Shown in pieces: positions 4,221-55,203 of a stretch of DNA of 64,000 nucleotides; positions within the stretch are counted from its first letter, which is position 1; each line of letters starts with the position of its first letter. Both the position numbers and the translations under genes were made by a program. The notes under the pieces are model-generated. The model was given only the letters and a program-made list of their open reading frames with translations, was not told where the DNA came from and made no database searches. Source of the DNA: Gammaproteobacteria bacterium (GTDB lineage Bacteria > Pseudomonadota > Gammaproteobacteria > Pseudomonadales > Azotimanducaceae); contig JAJFKA010000027.1 in NCBI GenBank assembly GCA_021773555.1, positions 1 through 64,000 on the forward strand, written 5' to 3'.

Positions 4221-6464
4221 ATGCGAGCAGTACGACATCAACCTGGTTCGATGATACCAGCATCTGCAGTCTCCCTGTGGCTGCTTGGCTGCTTTGTCGC
4301 GTTCGGATTGTCCGGGGCAGCCTATGCCGAGGACAGCGGCGAGGAATTGCTTGCGCAGGTAATCAATGCATCGGATGCATCGGTGGCCGAGCGTTTCGCA
4401 GGACTCATGCGACTATCCAAAATGTATAGAAGCCGGGGCTTCAAGCAAAGGGCCTTGCCCCTGCTCCATGAGGCATCAAGGCTCGCTCTGGGTATGGGGG
4501 TCACAGAACGCAATCAGAGTCGACTCGAACTCGGAGGGCTGCTCTATGATCTTGGCGCCTACGCAGACGCGCAGGACATACTGCAACCGTTGCTCGATGA
4601 ATCACAGGGCCAGAATACACTCACCCGCGTGATCGTTCTCAATGAAATGGGAATGGTTCAGGGCCTCGCAAACAACCACAAGTTTGCGCTGGAATTGTTC
4701 GAGGAAGGCATTCCTCTGGCGAAACTACTGGGTGAATCTGAACTCGCGGCGAAGCTCACCGTCAACCGCATCAAATCCCTTTCCACGCTTGGGGAGTTTC
4801 GACATCTCGAAGGTGCTTTTGAGGGGCTGGACGCGCTACTTGTATCATTACCACCCGGATCAAGGAAGGCAGAGCTGCTGATTGCGGCAGCGAACGAATA
4901 CCGCAGCGGATTCTGGTACTTCAATTTTTCGCACAAATGGATCCAAAGTGCTTATGTCCACCTGATCGAGGCGGGTAAGCTCGCCGAACAAAACAGGAAT
5001 ACCAGGCTGCTCTCCTATGCCAGAGGATATCTCGGCAGGCTATACGAGGATGACAGGAATTTTGAGACCGCCCTGTCGTTGTCGAGAGAAGCAGCGTTCC
5101 ACGCCAACTCCGTACGGGCTTTTGAAAGCGCCTACCTCTGGGAATGGCAGATAGGGCGAATCCAGAAGCAAAGCAATCGACCACTTGAGGCCATCGCAAG
5201 TTATAAACAAGCTGTTAAGACCCTTGAGCACGTTCGCCAGGACCTGATTGATGGCTCGCCCTATACCTTTCACCAGAAAGTACTGCCGTTATTTACAGAA
5301 CTTTCCGATATCCTCCTGACATCAGCAAAAAAACAAACACAAGCCACGTCCAGACAACAACAATTGTCCTACGTGCAGCAGGTCCTGGAACAGGCGAAGT
5401 CAGCTGAACTGCAGGACTACTTCCAGAATGACTGTGTACTGCCGGAAACCTCTGTTGAACTGAGTCAGGTTGAATCGGGAACGGCGACAATCTATCCGGT
5501 GATTCTGCCGGACCGACTCGAGATGCTCGTCAGCGTGGACGGGGTAATTCATCAGTTCGTCTCGCCCATCCAGGTTGCTGACTTTAATGGACTGGTGAAT
5601 GAGTTTCGGGAACAACTCCAGGTTGATTTTGGTGATGAGGAATATAAGGAGCTGGGCGAAGAACTCTATGAACTTGTTATTGCTCCTTACGAGGCGCTGC
5701 TCGCCAGCGAGCAGGTAACGACGCTGCTGTTCGTACCAGACGGGGTGCTGCGGACCGTTCCCATCGCTGCGTTGTTTGACGGTGAGCAGTACCTGGTCGA
5801 AAAGTATGCAATAGCGACAACCCCTGGTCTAAAACTAACCTTGCCGACGCCGCTGACGTTGAGTGACTCAGCGGTTTTTGCCGGAGGTATCTCAGACGCC
5901 GTCCAGGGATTTCCCGGATTGCCCGGCGTTCCCATGGAACTGGAAAACCTGCGTACCACCTACGGTGCGTCGATACTCAGCAATCAGGACTTCAGTGCCG
6001 ACTCTGTCAGTAAAGAGATGGCTTCGAGTCAGTTCTCGATTGTGCATATTGCTACCCACGGGCACTTCGACAGTAACCCCCAGAAATCCTTCCTGCTGAC
6101 TCACGACGACAAACTCACGATGAATATGCTTGAACGCTCGATTGGGTACCGGAAGGTCCTGGGAGACCCGCTGGAGCTACTCGTGCTCAGTGCCTGTGAA
6201 ACGGCAGCTGGAGACAATCGTGCGGCCCTGGGTCTCGCCGGTGTGGCCTTGAAGGCAGGCGCCAGAAGTGCTGTTGCAACATTGTGGCAAATCAGCGATG
6301 CGGCGACGGTTCGCCTGATTGGGTCGTTCTACCGGAACGCCGCGACGGGTGATTCGAGTAAGGCCGAGTCATTGAGAAATGCTCAACTGGAGCTAATTGG
6401 TAACGAGCAGTTTGCGCACCCCAGCGATTGGGCTCCCTTTCTACTAATCGGCAATTGGCTATGA
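4221..6464 (+). CDS. Exported TPR-CHAT domain (caspase-like) protein
   Basis: About 747 residues. The start at 4221 is preferred because GGAAGG sits 4 bases upstream and the product (MRAVRHQPGS, then a hydrophobic stretch ending GAAYA) reads as a signal peptide; starts at 4188 and 4251 are possible. Order: signal peptide, TPR-like helical repeats over the first two thirds, and a C-terminal CHAT domain opening with LLFVPDGVLRTVPIAALF. The predicted catalytic dyad is visible: His at 6057-6059 in HIATHGHF and Cys at 6195-6197 in LVLSACETA; GLAGVALKAGARSAVATLW and the terminal WAPFLLIGNWL are also typical. CHAT proteins are caspase-fold cysteine proteases. Its TGA overlaps the next gene's ATG (ATGA), so it is coupled to the two-partner secretion genes. 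A role in processing the secreted partner is inference. Confidence 0.9.
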   Translation: MRAVRHQPGSMIPASAVSLWLLGCFVAFGLSGAAYAEDSGEELLAQVINASDASVAERFAGLMRLSKMYRSRGFKQRALPLLHEASRLALGMGVTERNQSRLELGGLLYDLGAYADAQDILQPLLDESQGQNTLTRVIVLNEMGMVQGLANNHKFALELFEEGIPLAKLLGESELAAKLTVNRIKSLSTLGEFRHLEGAFEGLDALLVSLPPGSRKAELLIAAANEYRSGFWYFNFSHKWIQSAYVHLIEAGKLAEQNRNTRLLSYARGYLGRLYEDDRNFETALSLSREAAFHANSVRAFESAYLWEWQIGRIQKQSNRPLEAIASYKQAVKTLEHVRQDLIDGSPYTFHQKVLPLFTELSDILLTSAKKQTQATSRQQQLSYVQQVLEQAKSAELQDYFQNDCVLPETSVELSQVESGTATIYPVILPDRLEMLVSVDGVIHQFVSPIQVADFNGLVNEFREQLQVDFGDEEYKELGEELYELVIAPYEALLASEQVTTLLFVPDGVLRTVPIAALFDGEQYLVEKYAIATTPGLKLTLPTPLTLSDSAVFAGGISDAVQGFPGLPGVPMELENLRTTYGASILSNQDFSADSVSKEMASSQFSIVHIATHGHFDSNPQKSFLLTHDDKLTMNMLERSIGYRKVLGDPLELLVLSACETAAGDNRAALGLAGVALKAGARSAVATLWQISDAATVRLIGSFYRNAATGDSSKAESLRNAQLELIGNEQFAHPSDWAPFLLIGNWL

Positions 6465-8684: not shown

Positions 8685-11600
8685 ATGAAAATGTTGATAA
8701 AAGCACTCAAATGCATCTGCCTGACGGGATGTCTGTTTCCAATAGCTTCACTCGCTGAAGTTACCCTGGACGGATCAATGGGTGGAACCGCCGGACAGCT
8801 CGTCGGTTCTGGTAACGGTTTTACCTACGATATTACCCAGGAGCTCGGTACTCGCAGCGGCGAAAATTTATTTCATAGCTTCAACGTATTCGATGTCGCT
8901 AATGCGGAGCACGCGAATTTCTCCGGAGACTTAGGCATTGCCAATATCGTCGCTCGTATCAGCGGCGGTCTTGGATCAACCATTGATGGGCGCGTCTCTT
9001 CTTCCATCTCCGGTGCCTCACTGTGGCTGGTCAATCCCGCGGGCTTTGCTTTTGGAAACGGCGCCGTGGTTGATGTAAATGGGACATTTCACCTGAGCAC
9101 GGCTGAATTTGTCGCTTTTACTGACGGCGCCAGATTCTACGCAGATATAGCGGAGGACTCAGTATTGACGACTGCACCCATTGTGGGGTTTGGATTCATC
9201 GGCAGTGGTCGCCCGCAAGGCGACGTCTCGTTCAACAGCGACCCGGCAGGACCGCCCGGCGAGACAGCAGCGACTAGCCAGAATCTTAACGTGTCTGCGG
9301 ATTCGATCACTATCAATGAGATGGATCTGTATACCCGGGAGTTAGAACTTGCAGGTGGTGATGTGACCGTTCGTGACTCGTTTGCGCTTAGTTTCGATGG
9401 AACCATATTTATATCCGGTGGTGATTTCGTTGCCGTGAATTCGGTTGTATTGACGACCGGAGGCGAAGGTGAAATTGATGTCGATACCGATTCGTTAAGT
9501 CTTCTTGGCGAGGGTGAAGGGGGCTCCAGTCGTATGCAGACAGGCAGCGTTAACTTCAGTGCCGGTGATATTAATATCAATACCGGACAGCTATTGCTGT
9601 CTGAAAGCGCCAGCTTGAAATCTTCCTCAGGCCGCGATTTCAGTGGCGGTGATATTAATATCGTGGCAGAAACAGTTGTGATTGAGCATCAAAGTAGTAT
9701 CAATCTGGAAGCCGGTGAAGACAGCACAGCTGGTTTCCTCGATATCAAAACCGGTGACATTCTGATTACTGACGAATCTACCCTGAATACTTCCAGTGAA
9801 TTTGCCAACGGAATTGCGGGAGCGATTTTCATTGAGGCCACGGGTGATTTCGAACTCTCTGCTGCCAGTACCCTGCTCGCCACATCAGCAATATCCGGGA
9901 CAGGTGGAGCGGTGGTTATCGGCGCAGAAAACATTGCAGTTCTCGAGGGTGCGTCAATCGATATTGAGACTTCAGGCTCTGACGATTCTGGTGTGGCGAT
10001 TCTTCGGGCCAACAATGAAATCGCCATTGATTCGTCGAGCATCAATGGTAGTAGCAGCGGCGCGGGTCGTGGAGGATTCATCAATCTCAATGCCGCGATT
10101 GTGAATATCAGGGACGCTGATTTGGACGCTTTCGCACTGGATTCAGGGTTCGGTGGTGCAATATTCATTGATGCGGGTGTCATCGACATAGGTGGCGCGA
10201 CGAGTATTGATGTGGCGTCGTTTGGTACTGATGGGAGTGCTGGATCTGCGGGAGAAATTGGTCTGAGCGGTGAGTCGATCCTCATCGACGAAGGTACCGT
10301 GATCAATCTTAATTCGTTCGGTGGAGGTGACGGAGGTACCCTGCGAATAGACGGTGGTGATGTTTCATTGCAGAACGCGACAGTGGTTGCGCTGGCCCTG
10401 AGTACCGGGTCTGGTGGCGAAATCGAGGTGAATGCGAGAAGCCTTCATATTGGTGAGAACTCGGTGTTCAGTGCTACCGCCCGGGGTAGTGGTAATGCCG
10501 GTATTGTGAATTTCACGGGCACGGATTCGGTACTGATTGATGGGGGTTCGAAAATTTTCCTGCGCTCGTTCGGTCAAGGTTCCGGCGGCGACCTGACGAT
10601 TACCGGAGCAGACGTCGTCCTCGGTGATATGCAGGTGCGCGCCGAGGCAGTGGACCAGGGGGATGCCGGGCTCGTTCGGTTACTGTCGAGCAGACTCGTG
10701 CTGAGTGGTACCAACATTGATGCGTCAACATTCGCTGAAGGTAGCGGGGGCAGCGTCCGCATCCAGGCAAATGACGTCGAAATTATTGATGGTGCGACCA
10801 TCGATGTGATCGCCCAGCCAGGCAGCAGCGGCGTGGGCGGAGACGTGACAATCGAGGCAGGCAGGCTACTCATTCAAGGTATCGTCGACGGGGAAAATCA
10901 GGGTGGCGGTGGCATCTTTGCGGATGCCGCAGGCTCCGGTGATGGGGGGGAGATATCGATTCTGGCTGACCAGTTTATTCTGGATCACGCGTCAGTTAAC
11001 TCGGGAACGGGGGGTCAGGGTAATGGTGGATTTATCAGCATCGCCGGCCAGGAATTTTTGATGCAAGGTGGCTTTTTGAATGCCACGGCATTCGGCAGTG
11101 GCGCTGGTGGCGATATCTCACTGGGCTCGGATATCGTTACCATCACGGCCGGTGCTGACATCAGCGCGCAGGCGCAGGCAGAGGGTAGTGGCGGTAGCAT
11201 TCAGGTCAATGCAAACAGTTTTACGCTGTCGGATGGCGCGTTTCTTCAAATCAACTCAGAAGGTTCAGGCAACGGGGGAGATATTGTGGTCACTGCCCCC
11301 CTGATTGATATCGATGGAGGCAGACTTTCCGCTTCGGCACGTGGTGCAGGCAATGCCGGATTTGTCCTGCTTGATGGCGGTCGCTTTGCCGACAGCACAG
11401 TTTTGATCAGGAACGGCAGTGTTATCGACTCAGAATCCTCCGGTACGGGTTTTGGCGGTGAAATACTGATTACCGCTGATCGGGTCAACGTAAACTCGGG
11501 CTCCCTGCTCACGGTTGAAGCCTTTGCCGAGGGTACCGGAGGCGATATACAAATTGGTTCCGGCGTGGAGCAATTGGCGGATCGGATTTTTGTTCTGGAA

Positions 11601-13766
11601 GGCAAGGGCACTGTGATGCTCGATAACACCTCACTCACCGCCTCTGCACAAGGGAAGGGCGATGGTGGATTTATCCAAATCGCTGGTACGCAGGTACTGA
11701 TCGATAATCAAAGCGGTATTCTTTCAGATACATCAGGTTCAGGAACGGGCGGTGAAATACTGTTAACCGGAACCGATATAACGATCAGCGGTGGAGCTTT
11801 TTTAACCGTTGAGGCCGGGGGCGAGGGCAGAGGTGGTGATATTCTGATTGGTTCCAGTTTGAACCTCCGTGAAGATGGTGTGTTTGACCTTACCGGCATC
11901 GGCAAGGTCACGCTAAATGACGCGTTTATTACAGCCTCCACGAGCGGCTCCGGCGACGCCGGTTATGTTCGGATCGCAGCAGCTGACATACAGCAGCTTA
12001 ACAACTCTAAGGTATTTTCCACCACGGAAGGAAGCGGCAATGGCGGGGAGATTTTATTGCAGGCGGACAATATTCTGATAGCTGCAACGACGGGCCTTTC
12101 TGTCAATGCCCGGGGTGAGGGTTCTGGTGGATTCGTCGACATTCAGGGTGGCCAGCTTGAACTCGCGGGTGGATTTATCGCATCAAGCGTTTTAGGCAGC
12201 GGTGATGGCGGCGATGTACGCATCAACACAGCCTCAGTCACCATGTCCGACGCTGCAGTGATTGGCTCCAATGTGTTCGGGTCAGGCGATGGTGGTGGTG
12301 TTCACATCACCACGGGGGACTTCCAGGCGAGCGGTGGTTCGCGAATTCTGGCGGCGGCGTTCGACGGCACCGGTAGTTCCGGATTTGTTCGTATCGATGC
12401 AGACAATACCCTGCTTGATGACAGTCGTCTGGTGGTGAGTACCCTGACGTCAGGAAACGCGGGTACCGTTGTGATCGCTGGTGGTACGCTGACGGTTCGA
12501 AATGAAGGCGGATTGCTGGCAGATACATTTGCTTCAGGTGACAGCGGGCAGGTGTTCGTTGACGTCGATAGTGTGACTGTCGAGAGCACCGGTCAGATTG
12601 CCTCGCGGACATTTGGCTCTGGTCTCGGTGGGGAAATCCGAATCCGCGGCTCGAGTCTGGTACTGCAGGATGGGGGATCTATTCTGGCGACGTCCCAGGG
12701 CAGCGCAACGGGCGGCGATGTCCAGCTTGATGTCACCGATGTGACAATTACCAGCGGTGGGAACATCAACGTCTCGACGACAGCGCCGGATGGCGGAGAT
12801 CCCGCGGGAATTACCGGTGATGCTGGCACTGTGAGCATCGCTGGTGCGAACTCGCTGACAATCAGCAATGGAGGGCACATCCTGCTTGAGACCGAAACCC
12901 GGGGAACTGGCGGGTTCCTGCTTGCCGATGCAGACAACATCAGTATTTCCGATGGTGGATTTATCACTGGCACTGCGTTTGGCGATGGCGATGCAGGTTC
13001 ACTGGTTCTGATCGGCGATACGTTCACGCTCTCTGGTGGCCTGATTGAGTCAGATACGACCGGGCAGGGCATTGGCGGTGACATATCTCTCGCCGCAAAC
13101 AATCTCAGTCTCCAGCAGGGTACGATCATTTCTACCTCCGCTACAGGTATCGCAGATGGTGGCAGTGTGACATTGCAGGTTGCAGATACCCTTAACGTAC
13201 TGGATTCTGAAGTGACCACAAGATCTGAACTGGCGGGTGGTGGCAACGTCGACATTAATGTTGTCAAAACCATCCGCCTGGATAGCTCCACGATTACGGC
13301 CACCGCCAACGGTCAGCTGGTCAACAGCGACGGCGGCAATATCTTCATTGATCCTGTGTTGTTCACCATGCGGAAAAGTGAAATTTCAGCCAATGCAGTG
13401 GTCGGCGCAGGCGGCAATATTCTCCTGGTAGCTGAAAATTTTATCGTTGATACAGAGAGTAGTATTACCGCGAGTTCACAGCGCGGAATTGATGGAACTG
13501 TTGAAATTGAGTCCGCCAACGACACCGTGAACCCCGATACCGAGTCCCTGGCCACAGATTTTCAGGATCTGCCTGATTTCCTGTCGAACGACTGCACTGC
13601 GCCTGTGTTACAAAAACGCAGTTATCTTGTGATCGAAAATCTGAATCCGGTGCAGAGTGATCCGACTGATTATCTTCACGCAGAGGTGCCGGAAGAGAAC
13701 ATCGGAGGCAGTTTGGATACTTCGTCGCTGATGAAATTGACAATAGCCGCTATAAGGCCCTGCTGA
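8685..13766 (+). CDS. TpsA-type filamentous haemagglutinin-like secreted exoprotein
   Basis: About 1693 residues from 8685. The open frame reaches back to 8478. ATG codons at 8664, 8685 and 8691 all precede a good signal peptide (IKALKCICLTGCLFPIASLA); 8691 has the best-placed AGG. The N-terminal TPS secretion domain is clear: GENLFHSFNVFDV, ARISGGLGSTIDGRV and LWLVNPAGFAFGNGAVVDVNG, the last being the NPNG-type motif. The rest is a Gly/Ser/Asp-rich beta-helix of GSGDGGDI-like repeats, including two 98-residue units. The C-terminus has an isolated Cys (SNDCTAPVLQKRSYLVIENL) resembling the tail of cyanobacterial CHAT-linked haemagglutinins. It is probably secreted by the TpsB gene 250 bp upstream and may act in adhesion or aggregation. 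No toxin domain is recognised at the C-terminus. Confidence 0.92.
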   Translation: MKMLIKALKCICLTGCLFPIASLAEVTLDGSMGGTAGQLVGSGNGFTYDITQELGTRSGENLFHSFNVFDVANAEHANFSGDLGIANIVARISGGLGSTIDGRVSSSISGASLWLVNPAGFAFGNGAVVDVNGTFHLSTAEFVAFTDGARFYADIAEDSVLTTAPIVGFGFIGSGRPQGDVSFNSDPAGPPGETAATSQNLNVSADSITINEMDLYTRELELAGGDVTVRDSFALSFDGTIFISGGDFVAVNSVVLTTGGEGEIDVDTDSLSLLGEGEGGSSRMQTGSVNFSAGDININTGQLLLSESASLKSSSGRDFSGGDINIVAETVVIEHQSSINLEAGEDSTAGFLDIKTGDILITDESTLNTSSEFANGIAGAIFIEATGDFELSAASTLLATSAISGTGGAVVIGAENIAVLEGASIDIETSGSDDSGVAILRANNEIAIDSSSINGSSSGAGRGGFINLNAAIVNIRDADLDAFALDSGFGGAIFIDAGVIDIGGATSIDVASFGTDGSAGSAGEIGLSGESILIDEGTVINLNSFGGGDGGTLRIDGGDVSLQNATVVALALSTGSGGEIEVNARSLHIGENSVFSATARGSGNAGIVNFTGTDSVLIDGGSKIFLRSFGQGSGGDLTITGADVVLGDMQVRAEAVDQGDAGLVRLLSSRLVLSGTNIDASTFAEGSGGSVRIQANDVEIIDGATIDVIAQPGSSGVGGDVTIEAGRLLIQGIVDGENQGGGGIFADAAGSGDGGEISILADQFILDHASVNSGTGGQGNGGFISIAGQEFLMQGGFLNATAFGSGAGGDISLGSDIVTITAGADISAQAQAEGSGGSIQVNANSFTLSDGAFLQINSEGSGNGGDIVVTAPLIDIDGGRLSASARGAGNAGFVLLDGGRFADSTVLIRNGSVIDSESSGTGFGGEILITADRVNVNSGSLLTVEAFAEGTGGDIQIGSGVEQLADRIFVLEGKGTVMLDNTSLTASAQGKGDGGFIQIAGTQVLIDNQSGILSDTSGSGTGGEILLTGTDITISGGAFLTVEAGGEGRGGDILIGSSLNLREDGVFDLTGIGKVTLNDAFITASTSGSGDAGYVRIAAADIQQLNNSKVFSTTEGSGNGGEILLQADNILIAATTGLSVNARGEGSGGFVDIQGGQLELAGGFIASSVLGSGDGGDVRINTASVTMSDAAVIGSNVFGSGDGGGVHITTGDFQASGGSRILAAAFDGTGSSGFVRIDADNTLLDDSRLVVSTLTSGNAGTVVIAGGTLTVRNEGGLLADTFASGDSGQVFVDVDSVTVESTGQIASRTFGSGLGGEIRIRGSSLVLQDGGSILATSQGSATGGDVQLDVTDVTITSGGNINVSTTAPDGGDPAGITGDAGTVSIAGANSLTISNGGHILLETETRGTGGFLLADADNISISDGGFITGTAFGDGDAGSLVLIGDTFTLSGGLIESDTTGQGIGGDISLAANNLSLQQGTIISTSATGIADGGSVTLQVADTLNVLDSEVTTRSELAGGGNVDINVVKTIRLDSSTITATANGQLVNSDGGNIFIDPVLFTMRKSEISANAVVGAGGNILLVAENFIVDTESSITASSQRGIDGTVEIESANDTVNPDTESLATDFQDLPDFLSNDCTAPVLQKRSYLVIENLNPVQSDPTDYLHAEVPEENIGGSLDTSSLMKLTIAAIRPC
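11463..12050 (+). repeat. Two tandem 98-residue repeats inside the TpsA exoprotein
   Basis: Two in-frame units of exactly 294 bp (11463-11756 and 11757-12050) give aligned protein blocks. Each runs from an ILIT/ILLT strand through LTVEA, EGxGGDI, IG, a longer loop (VEQLADRIFVLEGKG against LREDGVFDLTGIG), TASxxGxGD and ends GSGxGGE. A third, divergent unit begins at 12051 (ILLQADN). The 98-residue spacing is read directly. Most of the remaining beta-helix is built from shorter units, so this block looks like a recent internal duplication. Confidence 0.8.
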
Positions 13767-50006: not shown

Positions 50007-51095
50007 TCATGGTCGAATCTCGTAAAATGCATTAAATATATCACCCTCGTAATCGATGGTGCGGAAACGGGAGAATCCAGCCGCGCCGGTCATCTCCCGT
50101 GCTTTTTGTTCGTGAAATCCCAGTGTACCCAGACCAGCACCGCCGGGCACGGAGAGACCCGCCGACATACAGACCATCACGGAAAAAGAATAGGCAAGGG
50201 TCGCGGTGGGATTTTCACGCAGGTTTTCGGCGAAGCTCGGCCGACCTTTGATATCTGCACAGAGCCATGTGCCATCGGTTTTTAATGATTGCCTGATGGC
50301 GTCGATCAGCAGCGCCGGATGGGTTGAATCGTGGACCACATCGAAGGTGGTAATAAAGTCGATGCTGCTGTCTTCCGGTAGTGGATTGTCGATGGCATTG
50401 GCCAATCGGACATTATTGATTCCGGCATTCTGGATGTTAGTTCTCGCCCGGCCCAGCGCATTCAGGGAAATGTCATATCCGGTAAACTCGCTGTTTGGAA
50501 ATGCCTTTGCCATAGCGATAGTTGACGTGGCTGCACCACAGCCGACATCGGCGACGCGGGCACCGTGTTCAAGCTTCTCGATTACCTGATCCAGGGCAGG
50601 TAACAGTCTTGGTACCAGATAGCTCGACTGGAATTTTTTGCTCATCCTTTCAATGCCGCAGGCACAGTTCTCGCCTTTATCATCAAAACTCTGGCCGATG
50701 CCCGACCTGAACGCGCCTGGTAAGGTGTCGACGGTTTCAAACATGGCCACCACGGACTGCAACATGCCCCCAAGGTACGCCGGATGATCCGGTTCTGCCA
50801 GGACCAGTCGGGCCTCCGGCGAGAGATAAAAACTATCAGTTTCTTCCGTATACTCGATCTGGCCAATGCAGGCCTGCTGGTAAAGCCATTCGCGTACCCA
50901 GCGCTCAGAGAGATTAGTTTTTTGCGCCAGGGATTCGCTGTTCGCTGGTCCGATTTGAGCGAGCGCGGTATACAAGCCCAGTTGTTCGCCGACGAAAGAC
51001 AATGCGCAGTTAAGTCCACCGACTACGCTACCGGAAACGTTCTTTGAAAATTTTTGTAGTTGAGCCGGGTCTACTCGCTGGCTGACGTCTGACAT
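50007..51095 (-). CDS. SAM-dependent methyltransferase with winged-helix N-terminus
   Basis: 362 residues from the ATG at 51095, with CAGGAG upstream; the frame is open to 51296 but the front is not protein-like. An N-terminal dimerisation/winged-helix part (LGLYTALAQIGPANSESLAQKTNLSERWVREWLYQQACIG) precedes a class I methyltransferase fold (ARVADVGCGAATSTIAMAKAFP, FTGYDISLNALGRAR, IDFITTFDVVHDSTHP). This two-part layout resembles Rv2258c-type and O-methyltransferase-like proteins; the acceptor is unknown. It lies 55 bp downstream of the giant cytochrome gene on the same strand. Confidence 0.9.
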   Translation of the reverse strand: MSDVSQRVDPAQLQKFSKNVSGSVVGGLNCALSFVGEQLGLYTALAQIGPANSESLAQKTNLSERWVREWLYQQACIGQIEYTEETDSFYLSPEARLVLAEPDHPAYLGGMLQSVVAMFETVDTLPGAFRSGIGQSFDDKGENCACGIERMSKKFQSSYLVPRLLPALDQVIEKLEHGARVADVGCGAATSTIAMAKAFPNSEFTGYDISLNALGRARTNIQNAGINNVRLANAIDNPLPEDSSIDFITTFDVVHDSTHPALLIDAIRQSLKTDGTWLCADIKGRPSFAENLRENPTATLAYSFSVMVCMSAGLSVPGGAGLGTLGFHEQKAREMTGAAGFSRFRTIDYEGDIFNAFYEIRP

Positions 51096-51150
51096 TGTTA
51101 CTGCTCCTGATATTGTGCATGGGTGTATGAATTGGCTGTGAAGGGTTGAG

Positions 51151-54100
51151 TTAGTCCATGAAGATGAGGAACTCGTTGCTGAGTAGTCCGTCAGGGGTTT
51201 GCACCTGCAGCAGATGCATACCCTGGGACGTATCGACCTGTCCAAAATTGATGCGTATCTGGTCCTTATAGCAGTTGGGCAGCGTTTCCGCGCCACGACA
51301 ACTCACCTCGGCCTGGATGAATCGACCGTCAAGCAAAACCCTGGCCCCGGGAAAAATGTGCCGTCCATTCAGCTGCACCGGGTTGTCCGCGGGCAATCTG
51401 GGAAACTTGTGCATGACAAGCGGGAAATCTACGGGTGACCAAAGCGCGGGCTGAAGATCAGCGTTTGGTCCGAGTCGGCCGGTGAAAGTGATCAACAGGT
51501 TTCCTGCAACAGCCTGGTCGAACAGGGCACTCCGCGTAAACTTGTCCTGCGTGGCAATGTTAATGTAGGTACCCTGCAAAAATGCCAGTGAGACGGGTGA
51601 TTGTTCACCACCCAGACCTTCACCCTGCAGCCGTATGGTTCCGTTCGACGCAGCCTGTTCGAGGGCGATCAGCAGTTTCTCGGACTGTGCTCGCCCCGGG
51701 CCCGCAGTCTGCGCATTGAGCGTTAATTGCCGGGCGAATGCGCCGGAATGACCCATACTGCCTTCCAGAAACATTTGCCAGGGGCCGAGGGGTCCAAACC
51801 CGCTGTCAATTCGATTCTGGGACGGATTGGCCTGGGTCCCGAAGGTCAGCCCCCACATGGACAATTCATCAAACCCTTTGCTGGCGTTGAAAGGAATTTC
51901 GTTGCCAGCAGGTCCGACCACGGAAACGAGTTCCCACATATTGATACGACCCTGGGGCAGGATAAGCCAGCGGTCCGGCAGCCCTCGAAATGACGGGGCA
52001 TCCATGCCGGTTCCACTAATGTTGGTGCTGTTCCAGAAAGGCATTTCATGGCAACCCACTCGACCACAGCTTGGCACACCGTTGTTGTGAAAGAATTCTC
52101 GAAATCCCTGTAGGGCGAGCGGTGTTAACTGATCGTCAAAGGGGCGCTCACGAGCTGGTGGGTAAGGCAGGTTTAGCAGGAAGACCGCCATCGCCTCACG
52201 TTCCTTCTCGGACAGCAGACCGGACTGGCCCGAATCATTGGTCGGGCAATCGCTCTGGTCACACATAGTGGAAGCCAGTGCGCCATCCAGCAGGTTTCGA
52301 ATACAACTGGTGGCATCCGTGCAGTTAGGCGCCACGGTTGAGCGAGGGAACTGGCCGTTAATACCACCAAATGGATCACCGGGAACACCGTCCCAGTGAT
52401 ACGGTGCAGTATCACGTAATCCCCGGGTCGGCATGGTCACCCGGGGTGGAATCTGCCGGCATCCCGGAATTTCACATTGCGGACCGCCGAGTACCCACAG
52501 GAGCTGATCGGTATTGCCATCAGGATGACAGCTCTCACAGGAAAATGTCCCTGTGCTGGAGGCGCGGGCATTGTTAAATGCCGCACGACCTGATTTCATC
52601 ATCGGATTGGTTGGATCATCCAGGGTGATTGATGCGGTCAGTGTTGGCGTCGAGGGGAAACGAAGGTCAACGACGGATACCGTGTTTTCCACGGCATTCA
52701 GTACAAAGGCGAGTTCGGCAGCACCGCCCGTGCCAGAGCGCAGCGCGATACCCCGCGGCACCTGACCAACAATGACTTCTCCAAGCACCTTGTCGGTCAT
52801 CGTATCAATGGTGAACAGCTTGTTCGATCCCGCCGCCGTCGCGATTAACAGGGCGTCATCATCGCTGATTGACAGGGCAAAAGGCGTGGCCAGCGCCGCT
52901 TCCGGATCAGGATTTCGGGGCGGCAATGGTTCAAGGTCGATCATCACCGGTCGTGAACAATTGCCACCACAATTCAGTGTCGCGACCTGATTAAGGAAAG
53001 CGCGATTGCCCAGGTCCTTCAATGTATGCTTTTTAGTCCCGGCCCGACCGTTAGCGTCATTTCGCGCTTCGGTCTGGGCAATATAGACCCGGCCAGTTGA
53101 ATCCACGGTGATCCCATACAACAGCGTTCCAATCGTTTCTACCGTATCGATCAGTTGATCAGTGTCGGTATCAAACACGAACAGATCGCGATCAGGCACG
53201 CGACGATCGCGAACTATATCGGCGTCGTAAAACAGCGACAGCACGTTGTTGTTGTCGACCACATGTTCCTGCAAATCAAAGGTGCATTGATCGCCATCTG
53301 GCACACCAAAGCACCCGGCCAGCTCCGTCTGGTTTCCCGATTCGAAAGGGATGACGTAGAGTCGGCCGTCTCGCACGAACACTGCGCGTGGATCCTGCGC
53401 GCCAATTTCCAAAAATCCCTTCACTGATCGAGCCGGAACATCGATGATGGCAATCCGGTTCTCTGAGGAAAGTGCGACGTAGGCTTTTTGGTTGTCGGCA
53501 AAGCTGATCCCAACGGGCTCATCAAAGCGCGTTGATCGAGTTTGCTCATCAAACGCCTGGATTGTCGCTACTACCTGATGTTCTGTCGGACTTTCCCTCA
53601 CGATGTCGATGATGCTGACGGAATCCGAGACGTGGTTGGTGACCCAGACCTCTTTGCCATCGGGTCTCACGGCGATGCCAACCGGGTCTATGCCGACGGG
53701 TATCGTGCTGATGATGTCGTTGGTCCGGGCGTCAATAACAACTACTGTGTCCGCAGGCGTGTTAACCACGTAAAGCCTGTTTCCATCCGGACTGAGGCTG
53801 ATGGGATTTGACTGCGGGCTTGCAAAAATCGGGTGGCCGACCGGTTCCTGAGGAATTATCGTGTTGATCGGGTAGCCGGCCAGCACCAGAAATTCCTCAA
53901 GGTTCCGATAGTTCTGGCCTGGGTTCGGGAAGATTTCTCCACCCTCGTGGGGTGTTTCACCACTGACTTTGTCGAGCAATACCCGGGCGGAATTTTGATC
54001 AAGGTAGTCTTGCAGATCACCGGCTTCGTCGATGACTAAAACGGTTGATGCCGATCCTGCCTGGTGGCAGCTGCTGCACGCTTCACTTAATGTGGCTGCA

Positions 54101-55203
54101 AGTGTGTCTGCATAAAACGTTTCGGCAGAGACTGCCACAGGTAATCGGCCAACCGCTGCCAGCTGCCACTGGCTATCATCTACACCAGGCAGGTTGAGTA
54201 CAGTTGTTCTGCTTGTACCCTGCATCAGCCAGACCTGGTTTTCGCCTAGATTGTTGCGCCAGAAAATATCCGCGCTACCGTCGTCGTTGACATCGATCAG
54301 CTCAGCCGGTTTCCAGTCCACGGATAACGGCGGGATAGTGGTGCGATTGTTGAGTGTTGCGCCATTCATTAACCAGATTGTATTTAAGCCAGTTTCTGCA
54401 TGACGCCAGAGTAAATCGTCAAACCCGTCGTTGTTAAAATCGGTGACACCTGCGATGGACCAGGTCGGATCGACGGTGGGGAGTGCGGCTCGTGAGGAAA
54501 CTTCTGCTCCCTGCATCAGCCAGATAACGTTGGCCCCTGTAGTTGTGTTCCGCCACACAAGATCGTTGCGGCCGTCGTGATTAAAGTCACCCGTGTGGGT
54601 TGCGTTCCAACCGGCATCAACAAGTACAGATCTCATGGCCTGGGAGCTGAGTCTGGCCATTCCCGACATTTCCCAATAGCGATTTGCACCGGTTCTCACG
54701 TTTCTCCAGATCAGGTCAATGTCCTGGTCGGCGTCAAAGTCTCCAGCGGCGAGCAGAATAAAATCGGCAGGTGCAGAGGTGATGGAAGTCGAAGCGATGC
54801 GCCGATGAGCAACTACATTCCAGATTCTGTTCTCTCCCGAAACCTGATTCCGGAAGAAGATTTCATCGTGCCCGTCATCGTCAAAGTCGGCCACACCTTC
54901 CACCTGCCAGGAGGCATCAACAATGCCTGGCAGGGCGTGGCGTGCTGCTCGCTCGGCTCCAGTCATTTGCCAGAGAATATTCTGGCCATTGGTTCTGTTT
55001 CGCCAGAGAATTTCATAAGCTGACGATGAAGTTTCCTGCTCGGCAACGACGACGAGGGGAACAAGCGTCATTGGCATTAAGAACAATGCTGATACCATGG
55101 TCAGGGCAGGAGATGGAAGGCATCGTCGCAAAACCCGGATAGCAACACCGTGAGATCTGGCGGTCCCGGGCTGCCGTTGTTTATGTCTGGCGGAACAGGT
55201 CAT
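51151..55203 (-). CDS. Large exported FG-GAP / cytochrome c / beta-propeller protein
   Basis: 1350 residues. A long basic N-region and hydrophobic stretch (VSALFLMPMTLVPLVVVA) form a signal peptide or anchor. Residues about 60-365: six FG-GAP/VCBS-type repeats (LLWRN-TG-N-IWLM patterns) with Ca-binding loops such as DFNNDGFDD. Cys376-Ser-Ser-Cys379-His380: first haem c site. Residues about 460-870: YVTN-type beta-propeller (LSPDGNRLYVVNTPADTVVVIDARTN). Cys889-Glu-Ser-Cys892-His893 opens a cytochrome c peroxidase/MauG-like domain whose second haem position reads Cys1046-Gly-Arg-Val-Gly-Cys1051-His1052, a CX4CH. The C-terminus is an IPT-like beta domain. Probably periplasmic or surface-exposed, in electron transfer. 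Neighbours give no substrate. Confidence 0.9.
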   Translation of the reverse strand: MTCSARHKQRQPGTARSHGVAIRVLRRCLPSPALTMVSALFLMPMTLVPLVVVAEQETSSSAYEILWRNRTNGQNILWQMTGAERAARHALPGIVDASWQVEGVADFDDDGHDEIFFRNQVSGENRIWNVVAHRRIASTSITSAPADFILLAAGDFDADQDIDLIWRNVRTGANRYWEMSGMARLSSQAMRSVLVDAGWNATHTGDFNHDGRNDLVWRNTTTGANVIWLMQGAEVSSRAALPTVDPTWSIAGVTDFNNDGFDDLLWRHAETGLNTIWLMNGATLNNRTTIPPLSVDWKPAELIDVNDDGSADIFWRNNLGENQVWLMQGTSRTTVLNLPGVDDSQWQLAAVGRLPVAVSAETFYADTLAATLSEACSSCHQAGSASTVLVIDEAGDLQDYLDQNSARVLLDKVSGETPHEGGEIFPNPGQNYRNLEEFLVLAGYPINTIIPQEPVGHPIFASPQSNPISLSPDGNRLYVVNTPADTVVVIDARTNDIISTIPVGIDPVGIAVRPDGKEVWVTNHVSDSVSIIDIVRESPTEHQVVATIQAFDEQTRSTRFDEPVGISFADNQKAYVALSSENRIAIIDVPARSVKGFLEIGAQDPRAVFVRDGRLYVIPFESGNQTELAGCFGVPDGDQCTFDLQEHVVDNNNVLSLFYDADIVRDRRVPDRDLFVFDTDTDQLIDTVETIGTLLYGITVDSTGRVYIAQTEARNDANGRAGTKKHTLKDLGNRAFLNQVATLNCGGNCSRPVMIDLEPLPPRNPDPEAALATPFALSISDDDALLIATAAGSNKLFTIDTMTDKVLGEVIVGQVPRGIALRSGTGGAAELAFVLNAVENTVSVVDLRFPSTPTLTASITLDDPTNPMMKSGRAAFNNARASSTGTFSCESCHPDGNTDQLLWVLGGPQCEIPGCRQIPPRVTMPTRGLRDTAPYHWDGVPGDPFGGINGQFPRSTVAPNCTDATSCIRNLLDGALASTMCDQSDCPTNDSGQSGLLSEKEREAMAVFLLNLPYPPARERPFDDQLTPLALQGFREFFHNNGVPSCGRVGCHEMPFWNSTNISGTGMDAPSFRGLPDRWLILPQGRINMWELVSVVGPAGNEIPFNASKGFDELSMWGLTFGTQANPSQNRIDSGFGPLGPWQMFLEGSMGHSGAFARQLTLNAQTAGPGRAQSEKLLIALEQAASNGTIRLQGEGLGGEQSPVSLAFLQGTYINIATQDKFTRSALFDQAVAGNLLITFTGRLGPNADLQPALWSPVDFPLVMHKFPRLPADNPVQLNGRHIFPGARVLLDGRFIQAEVSCRGAETLPNCYKDQIRINFGQVDTSQGMHLLQVQTPDGLLSNEFLIFMD

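Follow-up and report, generated by a model that had tools for sequence, protein, structure and literature searches.

Hydrazine synthase (HZS) is among the closest described systems to the protein reported here: its beta subunit is a YVTN-type propeller, thought to be structural (PMC12607021), and its gamma subunit a CCP/MauG-like di-haem domain. Fused beta-gamma homologues related to hydrazine synthase are reported to be prevalent in environmental bacteria, with one clade carrying one additional haem motif and several of the gene clusters flanked by FG-GAP (CRTAC1) genes; a Trp stands at the place of gamma-His144 both in bCCP/MauG and in the non-anammox homologues of clades I-III (PMC12758564). 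We identified, in a 64,000-nucleotide stretch of gammaproteobacterial DNA (the window), a gene whose product joins such parts in a single chain. The component parts are known, but their combination is not: neither Pfam nor NCBIfam has a named family with the full architecture, and a literature search returned no paper on an FG-GAP, mono-haem, propeller and di-haem architecture. The initial annotation of this DNA had found the combination unfamiliar, which holds for the full architecture but not for the propeller and di-haem core, which is not new in kind given the fused homologues already described (PMC12758564).

The encoded protein comprises, in order, FG-GAP repeats, a mono-haem domain, a YVTN/YncE propeller, a di-haem domain, an alpha/beta domain that has no name and a beta-rich C-terminus (Table 1). 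Pfam and NCBIfam matches together with sequence motifs bear out the order noted at first inspection, namely, FG-GAP repeats, CxxCH, YVTN propeller and CCP/MauG-like domain.

Table 1. Coordinates of the gene and of the features of its product in the window
Feature	Residues	Window position	Strand	Basis or remark
Whole gene	1-1350	51151..55203	(-)	1350-aa ORF on a 76-kb contig (G000:C114)
Signal peptide region	1-54	55042..55203	(-)	Basic stretch, hydrophobic core, VVVA|EQ; read from sequence
FG-GAP/VCBS-type repeats, six units	60-357	54133..55026	(-)	Pfam PF13517, PF01839; Ca loops
Mono-haem domain	358-440	53884..54132	(-)	Comparable domain immediately ahead of the propeller in several relatives
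First haem motif, CSSCH	376-380	54064-54078	(-)	Motif reading
YVTN/YncE-type propeller	455-858	52630..53841	(-)	Pfam, NCBIfam, model match to 5c2v_B
CCP/MauG/HZS-gamma-like di-haem domain	859-1190	51634..52629	(-)	Profile against 5c2v_C; CCP_MauG in relatives
Haem site 1, CESCH	889-893	52525..52539	(-)	Cys/Cys/His invariant in family and distant cousins
Trp937	937	52393..52395	(-)	Invariant, including distant cousins; aligned with HZS gamma-His144 (5c2v_C)
Haem site 2, CGRVGCH	1046-1052	52048..52068	(-)	CX4CH, not CxxCH
Conserved alpha/beta domain following the di-haem part	1155-1245	51469..51741	(-)	pLDDT mostly above 90
C-terminal beta domain	1262-1350	51154..51420	(-)	Predicted strands, pLDDT mostly 75-90; IPT-like by eye

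Judged from its sequence, the protein looks exported and is likely to be surface-exposed. Besides the cysteines of the haem motifs, many others are conserved (910/915, 961/967 and 981/986 are examples); they look like disulphides, which would fit an exported protein. In two relatives (L006 and L028), the di-haem domain has lost six cysteines together, which suggests three disulphides in the remaining relatives. Downstream, a SAM-methyltransferase-like ORF on the same strand (50007-51296) reaches into the 3' end of the gene only with a GTG start, and translation from an internal ATG (MSDVSQR) is more likely.

The N-terminal third matches FG-GAP_3 (PF13517; E 5e-16, 59.5 bits against a curated cut-off of 26.9) and FG-GAP (PF01839; E 1.7e-14) in Pfam. 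The six FG-GAP-like repeats initially described are indeed present, but Ca-binding loops of the D-x-[DN]-x-D type occur in only five of them (near residues 106, 155, 206, 255 and 304). A 612-aa exported-looking protein encoded in the same genome (L002, G000:C101:21110-21988) contains, between other parts, an FG-GAP module 46% identical to that of the window protein, and this copy inside another gene points to shuffling of the module within the host genome. In the mono-haem domain, His419 is a candidate sixth ligand, and the His of an HxGG motif is kept in most of the displayed relatives that have the domain. A match to the rubber oxygenase RoxC in NCBIfam (E 0.048) is confined to the mono-haem region, and RoxC was rejected as an assignment.

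We consider it very improbable that the gene is an assembly chimera, a doubt raised in the initial annotation, in which two genes of one genome, one with FG-GAP repeats and one of the core family, would have been joined wrongly. Such an error would be consistent with the lack of any second fusion of FG-GAP repeats to the core in the genomes searched, and with the presence of the second FG-GAP module, but identical DNA shared with that paralogue runs to 13 bases at most and the G+C content is even across the domains (0.52-0.57). Furthermore, the junction is in frame and falls at a domain edge, the mono-haem domain that follows it also precedes the propeller in relatives, and the N-terminus varies at this same place throughout the family.

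Residues ~451-1350 constitute a conserved, unnamed family, with ~50% identity over ~900 aa in relatives. Of the 207 genomes in the GTDB family to which the host belongs, 64 carry this core. Within a sample of the order, three genomes outside that family have it, and further members come from a MAG labelled Planctomycetaceae (L028) and another labelled Deltaproteobacteria/Myxococcota (L025). The core was absent from the four other genomes of the host genus, and a sample of the class contained none beyond the host. A phylum-level profile search likewise recovered the host only, although the genomes listed all belong to the same order, so that this search has little bearing on other classes.

In about 50 relatives, a constant core is flanked by variable ends. 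The N-termini range from short or lipobox-like leaders through Ca-rich repeats of the DxDxDG/TSP3 type to long repeats followed by a mono-haem domain, which is present in some relatives and absent from others. At the C-terminus, most relatives have an extra ~160 aa, recognised as CBM_4_9 in several; Pfam finds no CBM_4_9 in the window protein, and the region is missing from this protein, L057, L025 and L028, with L025 having a different 114-aa tail instead. The alpha/beta domain has no Pfam name, and the IPT-like end has no Pfam match in the window protein; the structure model predicts, with fair confidence, a beta-rich fold for this end. More distant cousins, ~25% identical, share the propeller and di-haem plan. 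In the tree, the window protein groups with L057, a 58% identical protein from another family of the same order, and with L025 (support 99/94 and 100/99), a join that is not certain because long branches meet there.

The propeller is recognised as YNCE in Pfam (E 1e-7, above the cut-off) and by YVTN repeats in NCBIfam (TIGR02276, E 1.3e-27). We obtained a 991-residue structure model in which the propeller and the C-terminal domains are confident and the di-haem part is poor. This model matches hydrazine synthase beta (5c2v_B) with E 6e-19 and a TM score of 0.78 by target length, its best PDB match apart from an archaeal surface-layer YVTN propeller (1l0q). The beta-propeller of the initial annotation is confirmed by both profile and model.

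For the di-haem part, the window protein on its own falls just below the curated CCP_MauG cut-off (PF03150; E 1.9e-4, 22.5 bits against 25.6) and has a sub-threshold NCBIfam match to MbnH, but CCP_MauG matches all 30 of 30 family members (best E 1.2e-6), which makes the assignment stronger than the single-sequence score and upholds the CCP/MauG-like domain originally proposed. A profile search with this domain placed hydrazine synthase gamma (5c2v_C) first (E 1.4e-7), with bCCPs and a di-heme enzyme far behind (E 0.04-0.9). The pairing of Trp937 with gamma-His144 comes from the 5c2v_C alignment, with the position counted from CxxCH; the alignment stops beyond this Trp, leaving gamma-Cys165 (the third thioether) and gamma-Asp168 outside the aligned part. 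Haem 1, the Cys and His residues of haem 2 and Trp937 are invariant both in the family and in the ~25%-identical cousins. Modelled separately, the domain gave a low-confidence structure (pLDDT 67) with no significant foldseek match (5c2v_C at E 0.88); fold searches of the PDB and viral libraries with this low-confidence model returned nothing informative.

Motifs for the predicted haem c sites were found, with a qualification: CSSCH and CESCH have the canonical spacing, but the third site, CGRVGCH, is CX4CH rather than CxxCH and might lack a bound haem. Most relatives have CxxCH at this second site of the di-haem domain. The lengthened motif is common to the window protein, L057 (CGSVGCH, also CX4CH) and L025 (CX5CH), and the window protein and L025 also share an insertion near it.

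The affinity to hydrazine synthase raises the question of whether the protein is a beta-gamma-like enzyme with a haem 1 that would reduce NO or some other nitrogen oxide. The beta-then-gamma order is that of HZS, HZS ranks near the top of the PDB matches to each half, and NCBIfam reports, in addition to a sub-threshold hydrazine synthase beta match (E 1.9e-23), a match to the beta-gamma fusion NF052342 (E 1.2e-15). However, the latter scores 56.8 bits against a curated cut-off of 1250, gamma-His144 is replaced by Trp937, and no HZS_alpha gene was found in the host genome (99% complete) or in ten other carriers tested, a meaningful negative because the same probe gives matches in two genomes, G453 and G1292. 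Hydrazine synthase proper was rejected on these three grounds. No core homologue adjoins the alpha genes of G453 and G1292, and we regard reduction of nitrogen oxides by the window protein as quite improbable. The HZS_alpha-domain genes themselves lie at G453:C20:20360-20539 (L083, L107), in a genome belonging to the host's order, and on contigs C122, C9 and C90 of G1292 (L084-L086), the MAG that carries L025. At L107, the HZS_alpha gene has neighbours that carry haem motifs; one of these ORFs, of 962 aa, has two.

In a manual alignment to the CCP consensus, Thr979 apparently occupies the place of the distal catalytic Glu of bCCP/MauG, a tentative placement. This apparent loss of the distal acid, together with three haem sites, two propeller-type modules and the structural role ascribed to the HZS beta propeller (PMC12607021), could indicate a scaffold rather than an enzyme, or a non-enzymatic electron-transfer or adhesion protein whose haems would hand electrons to an extracellular partner or take them from it, with the propellers as scaffolds only. 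Such a role seems rather unlikely, given that the inter-haem Trp and many residues around haem 1 are strongly conserved, suggesting a retained active site, and that the three haems are distributed over 1350 aa with no evident wire.

No conserved gene neighbourhood or operon that would point to a substrate was detected among 24 loci. At five loci from three lineages (L092, L096, L097, L099 and L102), the core gene is followed immediately on its 3' side by an ORF that looks by eye like an acyl-CoA dehydrogenase, which may be due to chance, as such genes are probably abundant. A regular-expression search found no sulfatase motif near the core genes of relatives; at L027, ORFs that start like sulfatases are located on both sides of the core gene (4506-5922 and 11500-12967).

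On balance, we lean towards interpreting the product of this gene as a redox protein with three haems that is exported and probably sits in the periplasm or at the cell surface, and the core of which represents an unnamed family within the bCCP/MauG/hydrazine-synthase-gamma superfamily. In such a protein, the FG-GAP module, like the Ca-rich repeats or CBM of relatives, would serve to anchor the enzyme to a matrix, a polymer or a partner; haem 1 would be where a substrate reacts, or else a small oxidant such as peroxide or O2; and the mono-haem domain and haem 2 might exchange electrons with haem 1 through Trp937. As originally suggested, this may plausibly be a surface enzyme with redox chemistry and a grip on a polymer, in view of the apparent export signal, the binding-type and Ca-rich modules at the same place in relatives, and the frequent CBM_4_9 and several lipobox-like starts among them. 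Only tentatively do we extend this to the whole core family, which could be an unrecognised class of extracellular di-haem oxidoreductases, related to bCCP/MauG and HZS and aimed at surfaces or polymers by module exchange.

The unnamed, modular core family is a more interesting finding than the fusion itself: a propeller and di-haem family with exchangeable binding ends is present in roughly one in three genomes of a single gammaproteobacterial family. From members that have no HZS alpha partner, the role of a beta-gamma-like module outside hydrazine synthase could be learned, and they could also bring to light an exported redox enzyme for polymers or surfaces.

To place the protein among known systems, it resembles HZS beta and gamma (5c2v, chains B and C) in that a YVTN-type propeller precedes a CCP/MauG-like di-haem domain, and the non-anammox beta-gamma homologues (PMC12758564) in the Trp that replaces gamma-His144. 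It differs from both in the missing alpha partner, a score far below the NCBIfam cut-off, the extra C-terminal domains and an FG-GAP module that is fused rather than encoded next door. With the bCCP/MauG/MbnH/BthA superfamily (PF03150), it shares the context of the N-terminal haem motif, an inter-haem Trp followed by Asp-Gly, and a second haem motif ~160 residues further on, but its scores are weak, the distal Glu is apparently Thr, the second site is CX4CH, and a propeller and modules are fused to the domain. YncE/YVTN propeller proteins (1l0q, 3vgz) have the propeller repeats without the haem domains, whereas CRTAC1/FG-GAP proteins (9etn), which match residues 59-175 at E 2.9e-4, have the FG-GAP module without haem or YVTN parts. 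Finally, the exchange of N-terminal (FG-GAP, Ca-repeat) and C-terminal (CBM) modules that we tentatively propose for the core family would be much like that among modular polysaccharide-active enzymes.
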